Below, one piece after another: positions 20,701 through 52,800 of a DNA stretch of 64,000 bases. The notes beneath the pieces are model-generated. The model did not search any database. It was not told where the DNA came from and saw only the letters and a list, made by a program, of their open reading frames with translations. A program made the translations under genes and the position numbers. Source of the DNA: an uncultured Christensenellaceae bacterium (GTDB lineage: Bacteria > Bacillota > Clostridia > Christensenellales > UBA3700); assembly GCA_944380295.1 (NCBI GenBank), contig CALWHE010000003.1, positions 1 through 64,000 on the forward strand. Reading direction: 5' to 3'. Within the stretch, counting starts at the first letter, position 1. The number at the start of each line of letters is the position of its first letter.

Positions 20701-20978
20701 GGTGCAGCGCTATACTCTAATAGCGCCGCAGGCAGCCGCAACGTCTGCGATGCGCCGTGCTATGCACGGCAGTATGAGCAGACATTTCACGTGCCCTCTC
20801 GTCGCTTGCGGTTTGAGGGCACATTTCACGTTTTTGCCAATGTGTTGGCAAAAACATTTCACTTTTGCGCAGCAGTATACGTTCGCTTATCGCTCACTTA
20901 TATCTGCGCAAAAATTTCACGTCCGGAGCGGCACGGCGCTTTCTCGCTTATCGCTTATTGCCGTGCCGCGGAGGACAT
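20701..20978 (-). repeat. HA hairpin-array element, copy A
   Basis: Complete copy in minus orientation. Read on the minus strand it runs ATGTCC, stem 1 GCGGCACGGC/GCCGTGCCGC, GTGAAAT, stem 2 TTTGCGCAG/CTGCGCAAAA, GTGAAATG, stem 3 TTTTTGCC/GGCAAAAA, GTGAAATG, stem 4 TGCCCTC/GAGGGCA, GTGAAATG, stem 5 GTCTGC/GCAGAC with inner stem CCGTGC/GCACGG. Unlike other copies it is not directly at the end of a gene. Confidence 0.85.
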
Positions 20979-33469: not shown

Positions 33470-33979
33470 ATGATAACGTTTGAAGAGATAAAGACAAAAG
33501 AGCAATGCGAGGACTTGAAAGCCCTTGCCACGGAGATAAGTTTGGAGCACTTCACGCCCATCACGGGCGCGGGGCAGGTCTATTACATGATGGACAAGTT
33601 CCTCTCACCCGAGGTGGTGATGCGCGAGATAAGCGAAAATTACGAGTTTGCCTTTGTCCTCTATAACGGCGTGCGCGCGGGCTATTACGCGATCGCCTTT
33701 GAGGGCGAAGCGCTGTTTTTGAGCAAGCTCTATGTGCACAAGTCTTTCCGCGGACGGGGACTGGGGCGCGCTATGTTTGAAAGGATAGTCAAAAAGGCGC
33801 GCGCCGCCGGCTGCAATTATATCTACCTCACCGTGAATAAGCACAACTCCTCTTCCGTTGCCGTTTATAAAAAGTGGGGCTTTTATGTCCATGAAGAGGC
33901 GCAAACGGACATCGGCGGCGGATATGTGATGGATGACTATATTATGAGAATGTCCTGCGCCGCCGAACAAAATCAATAA
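33470..33979 (+). CDS. GNAT acetyltransferase; C-terminus from HA element
   Basis: 169-residue GNAT-fold N-acetyltransferase. The acetyl-CoA site is LYVHKSFRGRGLGRAMFERI, followed by a typical YLTVNKHNSSSVAVYKKWGF. The substrate is unknown. The last residues MSCAAEQNQ and the stop are the left end of the HA repeat starting at 33950, the same peptide as in spoIIE and cwlD. No ribosome-binding site is directly upstream; the terminator hairpin sits between AGGGAGG and the ATG. Confidence 0.85.
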   Translation: MITFEEIKTKEQCEDLKALATEISLEHFTPITGAGQVYYMMDKFLSPEVVMREISENYEFAFVLYNGVRAGYYAIAFEGEALFLSKLYVHKSFRGRGLGRAMFERIVKKARAAGCNYIYLTVNKHNSSSVAVYKKWGFYVHEEAQTDIGGGYVMDDYIMRMSCAAEQNQ

Positions 33980-34231
33980 GCGAAAGCTATGTTCGGCGGC
34001 TCCGGACGTGAAATTTTTGCGCAGATATAAGTGAGCGGCAAGCGAACATATCTGCTGCGCAAAAGTGAAATGTTTTTGCCAACGAGTTGGCAAAAACGTG
34101 AAATGTGCCCTCAAACCGCAAGCGACGAGAGGGCACGTGAAATGTCCGCTCATCCAGCCTCGCAAAGCGAGGCGCATCGCGGACGTGGCGGTTGCCTGCG
34201 GCGCTATTCGATCAGTAACTGCTTGCGGCGC
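33950..34231 (+). repeat. HA hairpin-array element, copy B
   Basis: Complete copy. Stem 1 GCCGCCGAAC/GTTCGGCGGC (loop has ATAAGCGAAAG), stem 2 GCGCAG/CTGCGC, stem 3 TTTTTGCC/GGCAAAAA, stem 4 TGCCCTC/GAGGGCA, stem 5 TCCGC/GCGGA with inner CCTCGC/GCGAGG, all joined by GTGAAAT linkers. The first 30 bases encode the end of the GNAT gene. Confidence 0.88.
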
Positions 34232-34298: not shown

Positions 34299-34524
34299 GC
34301 GCAAAAGTGAAATGTTTTTGCCTCACAAGGCAAAAACGTGAAATGTGCCCTCAAAGCAGCGTGACGCTGCACCCCGTTCATATGTGACCGCAATGTGAAG
34401 AACTTGCACGCTCACAGAGAGGGCACGTGAAATGTCCGCTCATACTGCCGTGCATAGCACGGCGCATCGCGGACGTGGCGGCTGCCTGCGGCGCTATTCG
34501 ATCAATAACTGCTGGCGGCGCTGT
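34299..34524 (+). repeat. HA element, copy C (5' truncated, with nested insertion)
   Basis: Begins inside stem 2 (GCGCAAAAGTGAAATG), then stem 3, stem 4 and stem 5 (TCCGC/GCGGA with CCGTGC/GCACGG). The loop of stem 4, normally about 15 bases, holds a longer segment that starts with the short palindrome GCAGCGTGACGCTGC (34353 on). The tail matches that of copy B. No gene is seen in 33980-34536. Confidence 0.82.
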
Positions 34525-34536
34525 TTGCTTCGGCAG

Positions 34537-34887
34537 TTATCTGCCGGATAAATCGGCTTTTGCCGTGTTGATCGATTTGATCAAAATGCTTCGGATACTG
34601 CCGCATTCTTTTATCAACGCGGATACTTCCTGCATGTCCGGATAACCGGCGGATAAGATGAGATCCAGCCAATATTCGCTTTCATGGCACTCTTTGAGCG
34701 CTATCTGCAATTTGTTGACAAAATCGCTTTTACTGGCGGCATAATTCGCTTCGTGGATATTGGCACCGATAGACGTGGCGCTCCTCACGAGTTGTTTTGC
34801 CAAAATATATTGTATGCCGTCTTTTTTCAGCTTGTCGCAAGTCTGCAAAATATGCAAAGAAAAAGTTTTAGACCTTTCTTCCAGCAT
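34537..34887 (-). CDS. Four-helix bundle protein (23S rRNA intervening-sequence type)
   Basis: 116-residue protein of the four-helix-bundle family originally seen inside 23S rRNA intervening sequences (LAKQLVRSATSIGANIHEAN, DFVNKLQIALKECHESEYWL). The same fold includes Avd of diversity-generating retroelements, but no reverse transcriptase is near. Lies alone between HA copies C and D, which suggests a mobile or recently acquired unit. Role unknown. Confidence 0.88.
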   Translation of the reverse strand: MLEERSKTFSLHILQTCDKLKKDGIQYILAKQLVRSATSIGANIHEANYAASKSDFVNKLQIALKECHESEYWLDLILSAGYPDMQEVSALIKECGSIRSILIKSINTAKADLSGR

Positions 34888-34944: not shown

Positions 34945-35302
34945 GTTGCCGCGCTTTTATCCCACTTTATCCAATGTGCCCACAGCACCGCCACGCACGA
35001 CGAGTGCGCAGCTGTATAGTCTTTCTGTCGCTCTTGCCATGTTTTATCGCATTTTATTTAATGTGCCCACAGCACCGCCACGCACGACGAGCGCGGAGCT
35101 GTATCGTCGTGCATTTCACGTGCCCTCTCGTCGCTTTGCGGTTTGAGGGCACATTTCACGTTTTGCCTTGCAGGCAAAACATTTCACTTTTGCGCGGAAG
35201 ATATGCTCGCATATTGCTCGCTCTTATCCGCGCAAAAATTTCACGTCCGTAGCAAGGGCAAACAATTTCGCTTAATGTTCATTGTGCCCTTGCGCAGGAC
35301 AA
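34945..35302 (-). repeat. HA element, copy D, with duplicated end
   Basis: Minus orientation, starting two to three bases after the stop of the ATPase gene at 35305. Stems (minus strand): stem 1 GCAAGGGCA/TGCCCTTGC, stem 2 GCGCGGA/TCCGCGC, stem 3 TTTTGCC/GGCAAAA, stem 4 TGCCCTC/GAGGGCA, stem 5 CACGACGA/TCGTCGTG. The far end (34945-35090) is an imperfect tandem repeat of about 84 bp containing GTGCCCACAGCACCGCCACG twice; a related segment trails copy F. Confidence 0.83.
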
Positions 35303-42141: not shown

Positions 42142-42410
42142 ATGTCCTGCGCCGCCGAACAAAATCAATAAGCGAAAGCTATGTTCGGCGGCTGCGGACG
42201 TGAAATTTTTGCGCAGATATAAGTGAGCGATAAGCGAACATATACTGCTGCGCAAAAGTGAAATGTTTTTGCCAACGAGTTGGCAAAAACGTGAAATGTG
42301 CCCTCAAACCGCAAGCGACGAGAGGGCACGTGAAATGCACGACGATACAGCTCCGCGCTCGTCGTGCGTGGCGGCTGCCTGCGGCGCTATTAGAGTATAA
42401 TGCTGCACCA
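42142..42410 (+). repeat. HA hairpin-array element, copy E
   Basis: Complete copy: ATGTCCTGCG start, stem 1 as in copy B, stems 2-4 as in the others, stem 5 of the CACGACGA/TCGTCGTG type, and the end GCGGCGCTATT then GAGTATAATGCTGCACC. About 185 bases after the exonuclease gene, in the same orientation. Confidence 0.87.
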
Positions 42411-48837: not shown

Positions 48838-51087
48838 ATGAAAAACATATCCGCGGCACAAAAGACGGGCGCGTTTTTTGCGCTCTTTGCACTCTTTTAT
48901 ATCCTGGGCAGGGCAAAGCCGGCGCCGGACATGGCTCCGCTCGCCATCGGGCTTTATTGCGCGCTGCTGTTTTGCAAAAAGAATTATTTCGCCCTCTCGC
49001 TTGCCTATCTGGGCGGCGTGTGCGCCGCTGAGCCCGCGCTGCTCACGCTCATAGACGGCGCTGCGGCGGTGCTGGTGTGGGGAGCGGCGCTGCTCATCCA
49101 CCGCAAGGCGGGCTTTGCCCTGCGCCTGCCGCTTGCCGTCCTCTATTCCTTCATATCCATGCTGCCGCGCTTTTTCCTGGCGGTTTTTTTGCAAGGGATC
49201 GTGGTGCAGAGCGTGTGCGCGCTGGCGGTGAACGGCGTGTTCTGCGCCACTTCCTGCATCGGCTGTTACGCCCTGAACGCGCGCGGCGCGGGCGCGCGCC
49301 TTGCCTATGACGAAGTCCTGGGGCTGGGCTTGATCCTCGCCGCCGTGGGCTTGGGCGTCTGCGGCGCCGATCTGTGGGGTTACAAGCCTTATTTCACCGT
49401 GCTGGCGGCGCTGTGCACGCTGTGCGCTTTTGCTCCTCCGCCCCTTGCCGGCGCGGGCATTTGCGGCGCTTTTTCTCTGGGCGCAGCCATCTATGCGGCG
49501 GACATGGCGGCGGTGGGCGCGGCGCTTGCCGTGTGGGCGGCGGGCGCGTGTTTCCGCTCGCAGGGCAAGTGGCTTTCGCACCTTGCCTGCCTGGGCGCAT
49601 ACCTCTTGTGCGCGCTCGCGCTGCACGCTTTTGCTTTTGACGCGCTCAATCTCTGCCTTGCCTGCCTGGGCACGGTCTTGGTCGCCTTGGTGCCGGCAAG
49701 GGCGCAAAAAGCGCTGGCAAAAAAGCTGTTCCCGCCGCCCGGCGACGCTCTGCGCTATGCGGTGGAACGGGACAGGCGCGAGCTTTTTGACAAGCTGGGC
49801 GGGTATGCGCGCCTGTTTTTGGGCATGGCGGAGGAGTTCGACAGACAGCCCGCCCCGGCAGATCTGCAAGCCGCGGCGTGCCGGGAAGTGTGCCGCGTGT
49901 GCGGGCAGTGCGCGGAAGAGCGCAAGTGTCCGGACATTGCGGGCGAAGAGATGTTTGCCAAAGCCGTGGAACGCGCGGCAAAGGGCGAGCTTCCCGGCGC
50001 AGACGATCTGCCCCTCTTTATGCTGAGCAAGTGCAAAAAGACGGCGGACATTTTGCAGGCGTGTCAAAGCGCGGCGCGGGCGGCGCAGGAAAAAGAGCGC
50101 AGGCGCGAGGCGGCGCGGGAGAACGGAGCGGTCATGGCGGCGCAGCTGCGCGCCACGGGCGCCATGTTGGGCAGACTTGCCGTTGCCGTGGAACGCGGCG
50201 GCGCGGGCGGCGGGGAAGAGTGCGCGCGCCTTACGGCGGAGCTGGGCTACGACAATATCACCTGCTTGGGCGCGGCGGCGCTGGGCGAGGGGGAAAGACT
50301 GCGGGTGACCTTGCGCCTGCGCGCGGGCGACGAGGATAAGGCGGCGGTGGAAAAGGCTTTGGCGCGCGTGTTCAAGCGCAGCATGCGCCCGGTGGAAAGA
50401 GAGCGGGGGACAAACGCGGTCACCGTTACTTATGCGCCTTTGCCGGCGTTCAGGCTGGTTTTCGGCGCGGCGGAGCACACCAAAGAGGGCAGCGAGCGCA
50501 CGGGCGACATGCACGCGGTGACGGCGGTGGAAGAAAACACCGTGCTTGCCTGCGTGTGCGACGGCATGGGCAGCGGCACGCAGGCGGCGGCAGAGAGCGC
50601 GCATTGCCTTGCCATGCTGGAAAACTTCTGCCGCTGCGGCTTTGAAAAGGGCGCGGTGGCGGCGCTGGTCAACAGGTTTTCGGCGCTTGCCGGCACGGAA
50701 GGCTTCTGCGCCTTGGACGCCTGCCTGATAAACGTGGGCGAGGGCAGTGCGGAATTTATCAAGCTGGGCGGAGTGGAGAGCTTTATCCTGCGCGAAGGAC
50801 GGGTGAAAACGATAAGCGGCGGTGCCTTGCCCGCGGGCGTTTTGGAAGAGATAAAGCCCGTTTACGCCACGGAAGAGCTCAAAGACGGTGATATGCTGGT
50901 CATGGTCAGCGACGGTGTTATCGACGCGCTCACCTTGCACGGCACGGAATACACGCTGGGCAACATCGAGGCGTTCAATCCGCAAAACACCGCGCAGACC
51001 CTGCTCGCCGCCGCCCAAGCCAACGGCTTGCATGACGACGCCACGGTGGTGGCAATTAAAATCATGTCCTGCGCGGCACGGCAATGA
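48838..51087 (+). CDS. spoIIE: Stage II sporulation protein E, PP2C phosphatase; C-terminus from HA element
   Basis: 749 residues. The N-terminal 290 residues hold about ten hydrophobic segments, the middle is a regulatory region with a Cys cluster (CRVCGQCAEERKC), and the C-terminal part is a PP2C-type phosphatase (CDGMGSGTQAAAES, VMVSDGVIDAL, DDATVV). SpoIIE dephosphorylates SpoIIAA and so switches on sigma-F in the forespore. The end MSCAARQ plus stop is the start of HA copy F. A possible -10, TATGCT in TGTGTTATGCT (48826-48831), ends six bases before the ATG and no ribosome-binding site is seen. Confidence 0.92.
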   Translation: MKNISAAQKTGAFFALFALFYILGRAKPAPDMAPLAIGLYCALLFCKKNYFALSLAYLGGVCAAEPALLTLIDGAAAVLVWGAALLIHRKAGFALRLPLAVLYSFISMLPRFFLAVFLQGIVVQSVCALAVNGVFCATSCIGCYALNARGAGARLAYDEVLGLGLILAAVGLGVCGADLWGYKPYFTVLAALCTLCAFAPPPLAGAGICGAFSLGAAIYAADMAAVGAALAVWAAGACFRSQGKWLSHLACLGAYLLCALALHAFAFDALNLCLACLGTVLVALVPARAQKALAKKLFPPPGDALRYAVERDRRELFDKLGGYARLFLGMAEEFDRQPAPADLQAAACREVCRVCGQCAEERKCPDIAGEEMFAKAVERAAKGELPGADDLPLFMLSKCKKTADILQACQSAARAAQEKERRREAARENGAVMAAQLRATGAMLGRLAVAVERGGAGGGEECARLTAELGYDNITCLGAAALGEGERLRVTLRLRAGDEDKAAVEKALARVFKRSMRPVERERGTNAVTVTYAPLPAFRLVFGAAEHTKEGSERTGDMHAVTAVEENTVLACVCDGMGSGTQAAAESAHCLAMLENFCRCGFEKGAVAALVNRFSALAGTEGFCALDACLINVGEGSAEFIKLGGVESFILREGRVKTISGGALPAGVLEEIKPVYATEELKDGDMLVMVSDGVIDALTLHGTEYTLGNIEAFNPQNTAQTLLAAAQANGLHDDATVVAIKIMSCAARQ

Positions 51088-51394
51088 GCGATAAGCGAAA
51101 GTGTGCCGTGCCGCTCCGGACGTGAAATTTTTGCGCAGATATATGTGAGCGGCAAGTGAACTTATATCTGCTGCGCAAAAGTGAAATGTTTTTGCCTTGC
51201 AAGGCAAAAACGTGAAATGTGCCCTCAAACCGCAAGCGACGAGAGGGCACGTGAAATGTCCGCTCATACTGCCGTGCATAGCACGGCGCATCGCGGACGT
51301 TGCGGTGCTGTGGGCACATTAAATAAAATGTTATAAAACATAACAAGAGCGACAGAAAGACGATACAGCTCCGCGCTCGTCGTGCGTGGCGGCT
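51064..51394 (+). repeat. HA hairpin-array element, copy F
   Basis: Stem 1 GCGGCACGGCA/TGCCGTGCCGC (loop AGCGATAAGCGAAAG), stem 2, stem 3, stem 4 and stem 5 (TCCGC/GCGGA with CCGTGC/GCACGG) joined by GTGAAAT. After about 51300 it continues with GTGCTGTGGGCACATTAAAT and a piece up to GTCGTGCGTGGCGG that matches the duplicated end of copy D. The first 24 bases are the end of spoIIE. Confidence 0.87.
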
Positions 51395-51760
51395 GGGAGC
51401 GCGGGGCGCTCCACCCCTGATCAAGCCTTGAAGCAACATATTAGCCTGTCCGACTTACCTCTTCGCAATACTTACACGGCAAAGTGTGATAAAGCGCGGC
51501 AAAATCGGCAGCGTGACGCTGTATCCATTTTATGTCTTGAAGTAACTTTTTTTACCTGTGTCCACAAAAGTGGACAAATCTAAATAAGATACAATACCTT
51601 TGCTCTCCTTTTGAAGTGTCCACTTTAGTGGACAGAACGCCCTTGCCAAAAACTGAAAAACAAGTTGCAATATTCCGCCACCGAAAACCGCGCTTTTCGG
51701 TGAACAACAGCGTGGCGCTGCACCCGGAGCGCGGGGCATTTTTTTGCATAATATTCATCT
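51395..51760. repeat. Mixed repeat remnants and hairpins
   Basis: No gene recognised. Contains GGGGCGCTCCACCCC (about 51405) with CCTTGAAGCAAC, GCAGCGTGACGCTG (51509), TGTCTTGAAGTAAC (51532), two small hairpins GTCCACAAAAGTGGAC (51561) and GTCCACTTTAGTGGAC (51619), CACCGAAAACCGCGCTTTTC-type inverted sequence (51679 on) and another palindrome (51708). Confidence 0.6.
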
Positions 51761-51786
51761 TTGCGCATAAAGTTTATTGAGAAAAG

Positions 51787-51830
51787 TTATCCACACAAAT
51801 ATATGTTTATGGGGATAACTCTGGGGATAA
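51787..51830. promoter_or_regulatory. Cluster of DnaA-box-like sites
   Basis: One perfect DnaA box TTATCCACA (51787-51795) and two inverted near-matches TGGGGATAA (51810-51818 and 51822-51830, complement TTATCCCCA), the latter a 12-base-spaced direct repeat. It lies 40-85 bases ahead of cwlD. It could be a DnaA-controlled promoter or a DnaA-titrating site; the window shows no dnaA or dnaN, so it is unlikely to be oriC. Confidence 0.55.
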
Positions 51831-51871: not shown

Positions 51872-52558
51872 ATGCGGAAAATAGCGGTGATTTCCGGCAG
51901 GTGGATAAAGCTGGTGGCTTTCGCCCTGATATTGGCGGCAGGAGCGGGCTGCGCGGCGGGGCATGCGGCGGCTTTTGCCGGGGCAACGCCGCCCGAAGTG
52001 ACGGTGGTGTTGGACGCGGGGCACGGCGGCGCCGACGGCGGCGTGGTGTCCGCAGAGGGGGACAGGGAGGCGGACATCAACCTCCGCATCACTTTGCGCG
52101 TGAAAAAGCGTTTGGAAAGGCAGAATATCGGAGTCGTGCTGACGCGCACCGACCAAAACGCGCTGGGCGCGACCAAGCGCGAAGATATGGAAAAACGCGC
52201 GCAAGTGATCAACTCTTCCGGCGCGGACGCGGTGATCAGTATACACGTTAATAAATATTCAGGCGCATACCGCCGCGGCGTGCAGGTCTTTTACGGAGAT
52301 ACGGGAACTGGCGGCGCGTTTGCGGTCAAGTTGCAGTCGGTGTTCAATACCTATATCAATGAAAAATACAGCGGCAGAACGTTTTCCGCCCTGGCGGGAG
52401 ATTATTACATTGCCAAGTGCTCTTCCATCCCTTCCGTGATCGTGGAGTGCGGCTTTATCTCCAACAGTGAAGACCTGCGCCTGCTCAAAACGGACGGATA
52501 TGCCGATGAGATCGCGGAATGCATTGCCATGTCCTGCGCGGCACGGCAAAATCTATAA
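51872..52558 (+). CDS. cwlD: N-acetylmuramoyl-L-alanine amidase, CwlD-like; C-terminus from HA element
   Basis: 228-residue Amidase_3 zinc enzyme with an N-terminal membrane/signal segment. Zinc ligands His51 (DAGHGGADGG), Glu66, His125 (SIHVN) and catalytic Glu191 (VIVECGFISN) are all present. Size and motifs fit CwlD, which makes muramic-delta-lactam in spore cortex; nearby spoIIE supports this. The last residues MSCAARQNL and the stop come from HA copy G. A weak binding site AAGGGG lies 13 bases before the ATG. Confidence 0.88.
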   Translation: MRKIAVISGRWIKLVAFALILAAGAGCAAGHAAAFAGATPPEVTVVLDAGHGGADGGVVSAEGDREADINLRITLRVKKRLERQNIGVVLTRTDQNALGATKREDMEKRAQVINSSGADAVISIHVNKYSGAYRRGVQVFYGDTGTGGAFAVKLQSVFNTYINEKYSGRTFSALAGDYYIAKCSSIPSVIVECGFISNSEDLRLLKTDGYADEIAECIAMSCAARQNL

Positions 52559-52800
52559 ACGAACGTGCGCCGTGCCGCTCCGGACGTGAAATTTTTGCGC
52601 AGATATAAGTGAGCGGTAAGCGAACGTATACTGCTGCGCAAAAGTGAAATGTTTTTGCCTCACAAGGCAAAAACGTGAAATGTGCCCTCAAACCGCAAGC
52701 GACGAGAGGGCACGTGAAATGTTTGCTCATACTGCCGCAAAGCGGCGCATCGCAAACGTGGCGGCTGCCTGCGGCGCTATTGGAATATAATGCTGCACCC
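52529..52800 (+). repeat. HA hairpin-array element, copy G
   Basis: Complete 272-bp copy. Stem 1 GCGGCACGGC/GCCGTGCCGC, stem 2 GCGCAG/CTGCGC, stem 3 TTTTTGCC/GGCAAAAA, stem 4 TGCCCTC/GAGGGCA, stem 5 GTTTGC/GCAAAC with inner GCCGC/GCGGC, and the end GCGGCGCTATT then TATAATGCTGCACC. The first 30 bases encode the end of cwlD. Confidence 0.88.

Follow-up and report, generated by a model that had tools for sequence, protein, structure and literature searches.

Background

The described family closest to the elements reported here is Gut-1 RNA (Rfam RF01706), which Weinberg and colleagues list on the strength of comparative analysis (PMC2864571). When first described, it came from gut bacteria that had no cultured hosts. 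On the basis of its covariation it was rated 'certainly' an RNA, was judged not to be cis-regulatory, and was found in the human gut only (PMC2864571). The consensus of the Rfam model is CAaUGAAAU-hairpin-GUGAAAU-hairpin-GUGAAA-hairpin-UGAAAU, and the typical form is a compact converging pair of three-hairpin arrays, from which the elements described below differ. A literature search on the linker motif, or on Gut-1 RNA by name, found nothing useful.

A second group for comparison comprises the REP, BIME and REPIN elements, which are multi-copy extragenic palindromic units arranged in mosaics. REP and BIME elements are marked by a GTAG or CGTC tag beside the palindrome (PMC3733652), and in REP it is the palindrome that is conserved.

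The window analysed here is a 64-kb stretch of DNA from a draft genome of 1.75 Mb in 27 contigs (G000), and it contains seven copies (A to G) of a hairpin array termed HA. Like Gut-1 RNA, HA consists of consecutive hairpins with a GUGAAAU linker and with stems that change freely by compensation. It differs in having five hairpins, in its longer and more elaborate stems (with inner helices and AAGCGA-type loops), in scores below the model cut-off, and in continuing into a mosaic tail. With REP, BIME and REPIN elements HA shares the multi-copy extragenic mosaics, and the generic Gut-1 arrays described below are paired in opposite orientation in a REPIN-like manner. Unlike REP, HA has no GTAG or CGTC tag; its constant part is GTGAAAT (variants GTGATAT and ATGAATT), which stands both 5' and 3' of every hairpin, whereas the hairpin sequences all differ. 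No RAYT (Y1) gene flanked by HA repeats was found, so that REP/BIME, named in the initial annotation as the closest idea, fits as an analogy for intergenic palindromic mosaics and fails for the tag and the RAYT link. The BOX elements of pneumococci resemble HA in being modular and intergenic, with variable internal modules and a stable fold. They are not known to contain anything comparable to a constant linker that joins interchangeable hairpins.

Architecture of the elements in the window

The window contains 32 occurrences of GTGAAAT, compared with 8.1 (sd 2.8, maximum 15) in dinucleotide-preserving shuffles, and 27 of the 32 lie inside the seven reported HA copies (Table 1). The alternation of hairpins and linkers given for these copies in the initial annotation was confirmed by linker counts and stem inspection, with copy C being a fragment, and the alleles listed there for stems 1, 2 and 5 match the window copies exactly. 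In stem 1, GTCC pairs with GGAC to form an outer helix, and an internal mismatch is conserved. On the 3' side of stem 5, GTGGCGG or GTTGCGG is followed by a further palindromic-repeat mosaic of several hundred bases. Copy G had been assigned a start at 52529; the element itself begins with TGTCC at 52530, its hairpin 5 ends at 52757, and GTGGCGG and the repeat tail come next. Folding of copy G gave five hairpins on either strand (z = -6.95 for RNA of the plus strand; z = -6.69 for DNA of the minus strand). Canonical terminators were rejected because, on the GTGAAAT strand, the hairpins lack a T-run behind them.

Table 1. Coordinates of the HA copies in the window, with copy G divided into its parts
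Feature	Position	Strand	Sequence or detail	Basis
Copy A	20720..20978	-	five hairpins	sequence inspection, BLAST
Copy B	33950..34207	+	five hairpins	sequence inspection, BLAST
Copy C	34299..34497	+	fragment: stems 3 to 5, insertion within stem-4 loop	
Copy D	35060..35301	-	five hairpins	linker search, sequence inspection
Copy E	42142..42390	+	five hairpins	BLAST; hit of the Gut-1 model at 42198-42341 (33.5 bits)
Copy F	51064..51305	+	five hairpins	BLAST; hit of the Gut-1 model at 51159-51262 (32.8 bits, E 1.0e-4)
Copy G, hairpin 1	52530..52585	+	GTCCTGCGCGGCACGGC / GCCGTGCCGCTCCGGAC, outer GTCC/GGAC helix included	sequence, fold, pair table
Copy G, linker 1	52586..52592	+	GTGAAAT	motif count
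Copy G, hairpin 2	52593..52643	+	TTTTGCGCAG / CTGCGCAAAA	sequence, pair table, fold
Copy G, linker 2	52644..52650	+	GTGAAAT	motif count
Copy G, hairpin 3	52651..52674	+	GTTTTTGCC / GGCAAAAAC	sequence, pair table, fold
Copy G, linker 3	52675..52681	+	GTGAAAT	motif count
Copy G, hairpin 4	52682..52713	+	GTGCCCTC / GAGGGCAC	sequence, pair table, fold
Copy G, linker 4	52714..52720	+	GTGAAAT	motif count
Copy G, hairpin 5	52721..52757	+	outer GTTTGC/GCAAAC, inner GCCGC/GCGGC	
Copy G, 3' module, start of mosaic tail	52758..52800	+	GTGGCGGCTGCCTGCGGCGCTATT...ATAATGCTGCACCC	

At 33950, 35301 (minus strand), 51064 and 52530, hairpin 1 gives the upstream gene its last codons and stop codon, with in-frame tails such as M-S-C-A-A-R-Q-stop and M-S-C-A-A-E-Q-N-Q-stop. 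The amidase ORF upstream of copy G enters hairpin 1 and has its stop codon in the hairpin loop. At copy F, the original last codons of the upstream gene have been lost and are still present in congeners. The mosaic of other palindromic repeats on the 3' side of HA copies (for example, 51310-51800 of the window) often recurs in the same order and includes GGAGCGCGGGGCGCTCCACCCC, CAGCGTGACGCTGCACCC, CCTTGAAGTAACTTG... and AAAATGCGCCGTGCGCATTTT. A gene for a 23S rRNA-intervening-sequence protein (PF05635, E 2.7e-23) is located between copies C and D at 34537-34887 on the minus strand; despite its presence, no Rfam rRNA match was obtained in the window.

Relationship to Gut-1 RNA

No Rfam family matched the window at the gathering threshold. 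In the source genome, the RF01706 model identified 38 places, all below the cut-off (best score 34.9 of 50 bits, E 3e-5), and at least 30 of these 38 coincide with HA copies, among which are A, B, D, E and F. The initial annotation had found no named element with this plan, and in this it was mistaken, as a succession of GTGAAAT, hairpin, GTGAAAT and hairpin is the plan of Gut-1 RNA. Because the linker and plan are the same and Gut-1 matches occur below the threshold, HA is, judged by sequence, a divergent, genus-level, five-hairpin relative of the Gut-1 class and not a new plan. It is a longer relative of Gut-1 that had previously not been listed.

Hairpin arrays that share the GTGAAAT linker but have unrelated stems are widespread in Clostridia. 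Among 297 genomes of the order, a search with the linker alone picked out 20 with arrays of this kind, whose stems are near-perfect; the 20 include some genomes with tandem repeats instead of hairpins, and the reversed pattern detected almost none. Public genomes with GTGAAAT arrays are mainly clostridial gut MAGs. When hairpins were located first, in about 0.8 Mb of the genome G310, the seven-base spacer between adjacent perfect hairpins was GTGAAAT in 75 of 81 cases (150 of 162 with both strands counted). Such generic arrays match RF01706 with up to 79.5 bits and form compact converging pairs of about 230 bp without an ORF. Gut-1 matches with E values up to 0.001 were present in 48 of 200 genomes of the order, with 29 above the cut-off. 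Gut-1, for 15 years an orphan 'RNA' family with no known source other than gut metagenomes, thus gains many genomic homes in one order and, with HA, a long five-hairpin branch. Four of the generic arrays (L077, L095, L188 and L217) are located shortly 3' of tRNA genes, past a terminator-like hairpin. A match assigned to Akkermansiaceae (L180) probably lies on a clostridial contig that was placed in the wrong bin, as the large ORF at this locus groups with those of clostridial loci.

Copy number, genomic sites and spread

The source genome contains about 50 HA copies, with 48 BLAST matches and 52 places that have at least three linkers. By sequence similarity HA is confined to the genus, where three further genomes were positive (G001, G003 and G004); it was absent from G002 and G005, and no match was obtained in the other genera of the family. 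According to hexamer-based gene calls made for this analysis, none of 45 copies in the source genome lies within a gene and one of 42 lies between divergent genes. The TGTCC end of HA abuts the edge of a gene, and the opposite side carries several hundred bases of mosaic repeats. Comparison of sites among relatives revealed both gain and persistence: five congeners have only a short SpoIIE-amidase gap, with no element, where copy F stands in the source genome; copy G is missing from the orthologous site in G001; and copy B occupies the identical codon of a GNAT gene in this sister species (84% identity), with different stem alleles, that of stem 1 included.

Relative to the upstream gene, 25 copies in the source genome are sense and 18 are antisense, and relative to replication they show no orientation bias (24 to 21). 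A replication-strand bias of insertion, strong in G310 (37 of 41 arrays) and absent from the source genome, was rejected as a general rule. No similar DNA was found in phage and plasmid collections, and carriage by phages or plasmids was rejected. Most pattern matches in viral contigs were chance matches in coding sequence. Three of the viral-contig matches (L097, L138 and L160) are real generic arrays.

Covariation and exchange of hairpins

A pair table was compiled from the arms only of 59 complete elements (51 distinct) of G000, G001 and G003. Two-sided changes were present in 32 of 48 stem pairs. Watson-Crick pairs filled 94.2% of the cells, compared with 69.9% (maximum 71.7%) when the 3' letters were shuffled, a control that ignores the relatedness of copies, and with 32-35% when the partners were slid; the slid control and the between-species replacements are independent of relatedness. 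In the source genome, nearly all combinations of the stem-1, stem-2 and stem-5 alleles were seen, so hairpins behave as exchangeable units. Arrays of G003 have the same five-hairpin plan, with GTGATAT as the usual linker; their outer stems have been replaced (TTTTGGAC/GTCCAAAA in hairpin 5), whereas stems 4 and 5 are unchanged in their inner parts.

Orthologous gaps of G310 and G138, two genomes of one genus, were also compared. At one site, whose flanking genes are 97 and 99% identical, ATTTGGC/GCCAAAT in one genome corresponds to ATTCGGC/GCCGAAT in the other. At a second (L355/L388), the array has been kept, all linkers are ATGAATT in G310 and GTGAAAT in G138, and the last hairpin shows a compensatory difference. 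Two further orthologous gaps have clear arrays mainly in G138. At these sites the architecture persists, the arms turn over and the linkers change jointly; the linkers of any one array seem to undergo concerted evolution, as at L355 and in the mostly GTGATAT arrays of G003.

The covariation reported in the initial annotation is thus real within the genome, between species and at an orthologous site. HA inserts at new sites, exchanges hairpins and replaces them with pairing preserved. The conclusion drawn earlier, that the fold is selected, is likely and falls short of proof, because templated palindrome correction could also produce perfect covarying stems.

DNA-level and RNA-level readings

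We favour, with a probability of roughly 0.5, the reading of HA as a dispersed DNA-level hairpin repeat of the Gut-1 class that is spread in trans. HA would insert beside gene ends as a dispersed intergenic repeat, with near-perfect hairpins kept apart by the constant seven-base linker. Each linker-plus-hairpin unit would be a module, and the structure would act, being copied or checked, as single-stranded DNA on the ATTTCAC strand. A putative trans-acting function of the host or of the element would spread HA, and the arrays would be maintained because hairpins of single-stranded DNA are either selected or copied. The scheme also includes a putative reader of GTGAAAT and, possibly, a benefit to the host; effects on neighbouring genes, such as protection of mRNA ends, would be secondary.

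The composition of the arms and loops is consistent with this reading. Among 71 different array hairpins of G310, 544 pairs included no G-T and two A-C, and a wider set of 222 hairpins had one G-T and seven A-C in 1333 pairs; terminator-like hairpins of G310, used as a control, had 25 G-T and 12 A-C in 1096 pairs. Triloops on the GTGAAAT strand of G310 are C(TNC)G in 36 cases and C(GNA)G in one, whereas GNA or TNC made up 56 of 209 triloops in control palindromes. C(TNC)G or C(TNNC)G on the GTGAAAT strand means C(GNA)G or C(GNNA)G on the ATTTCAC strand, and d(cGNAg) and d(cGNNAg) are unusually stable DNA loops. The RNA-type GNRA is not preferred over other GNNA loops in the arrays. With DNA parameters, the ATTTCAC strand was the more stable in 105 hairpins and the less stable in 31; RNA parameters likewise favour this strand, and the loop bias by itself would therefore fit an antisense RNA as well as DNA.

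The main rival is the existing reading of Gut-1, in which transcription of the arrays yields the 3' ends of mRNAs, or small RNAs; the hairpins in tandem would stop 3' exonucleases, and an RNA-binding protein would recognise the single-stranded GUGAAAU repeats. We regard it as possible and on balance doubtful. It would agree with the 'certainly' given to Gut-1 as an RNA on covariation (PMC2864571), with the strong RNA folding of copy G (z -6.95), and with the avoidance of divergent promoter regions by HA in the source genome. In G310, 33 of 41 arrays directly follow a same-sense gene, often less than 60 nt past the stop codon, which is the expectation for a transcribed 3' UTR element and counts against the DNA-level reading. 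Also counting against the latter are the co-orientation of 37 of 41 G310 arrays with replication, on the leading strand; the A-U and U.G pairs that linker ends can add to each hairpin when the GUGAAAU strand is folded as RNA; and the stems of the HA copies, in which wobble is little depleted relative to A-C (14 versus 19). Transcribed RNA is, however, hard to reconcile with arms almost devoid of G-U compared with terminators of the same genome, with loops whose optimal form is found on the complement of the sense transcript, and with the occurrence of HA both sense and antisense to upstream genes. Covariation in Gut-1 had been taken as RNA structure; since the scarcity of wobble pairs, the strand that carries the stable loops, the sites without an element and the jointly changing linkers point to DNA, the family may have been misfiled as RNA and may instead be a spreading DNA element. 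In a more far-reaching version, which we consider rather unlikely, Gut-1 and HA would be hairpin-cassette DNA and not RNA genes. A putative clostridial single-stranded-DNA system would join, swap and renew linker-plus-hairpin units at GTGAAAT, perfecting the arms by copying and homogenising the linkers within each array.

Covariation might also be purely mutational, with single-stranded DNA hairpins templating their own correction (quasi-palindrome correction), gene conversion shuffling alleles, and the arrays being neutral or parasitic. The near-perfect palindromes with hardly any one-sided intermediates, the 83 distinct hairpins across 34 G310 arrays, and the confinement of the loop type that favours fold-back to one strand are all compatible with this account, but correction alone does not explain fixed linkers or hairpin number and order, outer stems differ between species that have stem 4 and the inner part of stem 5 in common, and arrays persist at orthologous sites; we consider the account unlikely. 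Far less probable again is that HA is a classic REP/BIME or an IS200/IS605-derived MITE that owes its movement to a Y1 (HUH) transposase or RAYT; the intergenic palindromic mosaics and the Y1 proteins encoded in G000, G002, G310, G119, G239 and G250 would fit this. The REP-associated Y1 transposase suggested in the initial annotation proved to be missing from most array-rich genomes tested (no match in the array carriers G001, G003, G004, G162, G056, G174, G293 and G254); where Y1 genes are present they are flanked by other repeats or by none, with no GTGAAAT arrays, and the GTAG/CGTC tag is absent from HA. Mobilisation by Y1/RAYT was rejected on this distribution and these flanks.

Neighbouring genes and Y1 loci

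No mobilising enzyme for HA arrays was found, nor was an autonomous parent with arrays at its ends. Across 67 loci, no recurrent neighbour gene was detected beyond an array-derived low-complexity ORF and scattered housekeeping or recombinase genes. Two IS200-like loci that were inspected (L163 and L169) had neither GTGAAAT arrays nor HA-like ends. RAYT-sized Y1 proteins of 253-289 aa are encoded at L166, L170, L174 and L171 in G310 and G239, and the RAYT-sized loci inspected are flanked by palindromic repeats of another family, which have ends of the GGGACGG type and bear no relation to GTGAAAT.
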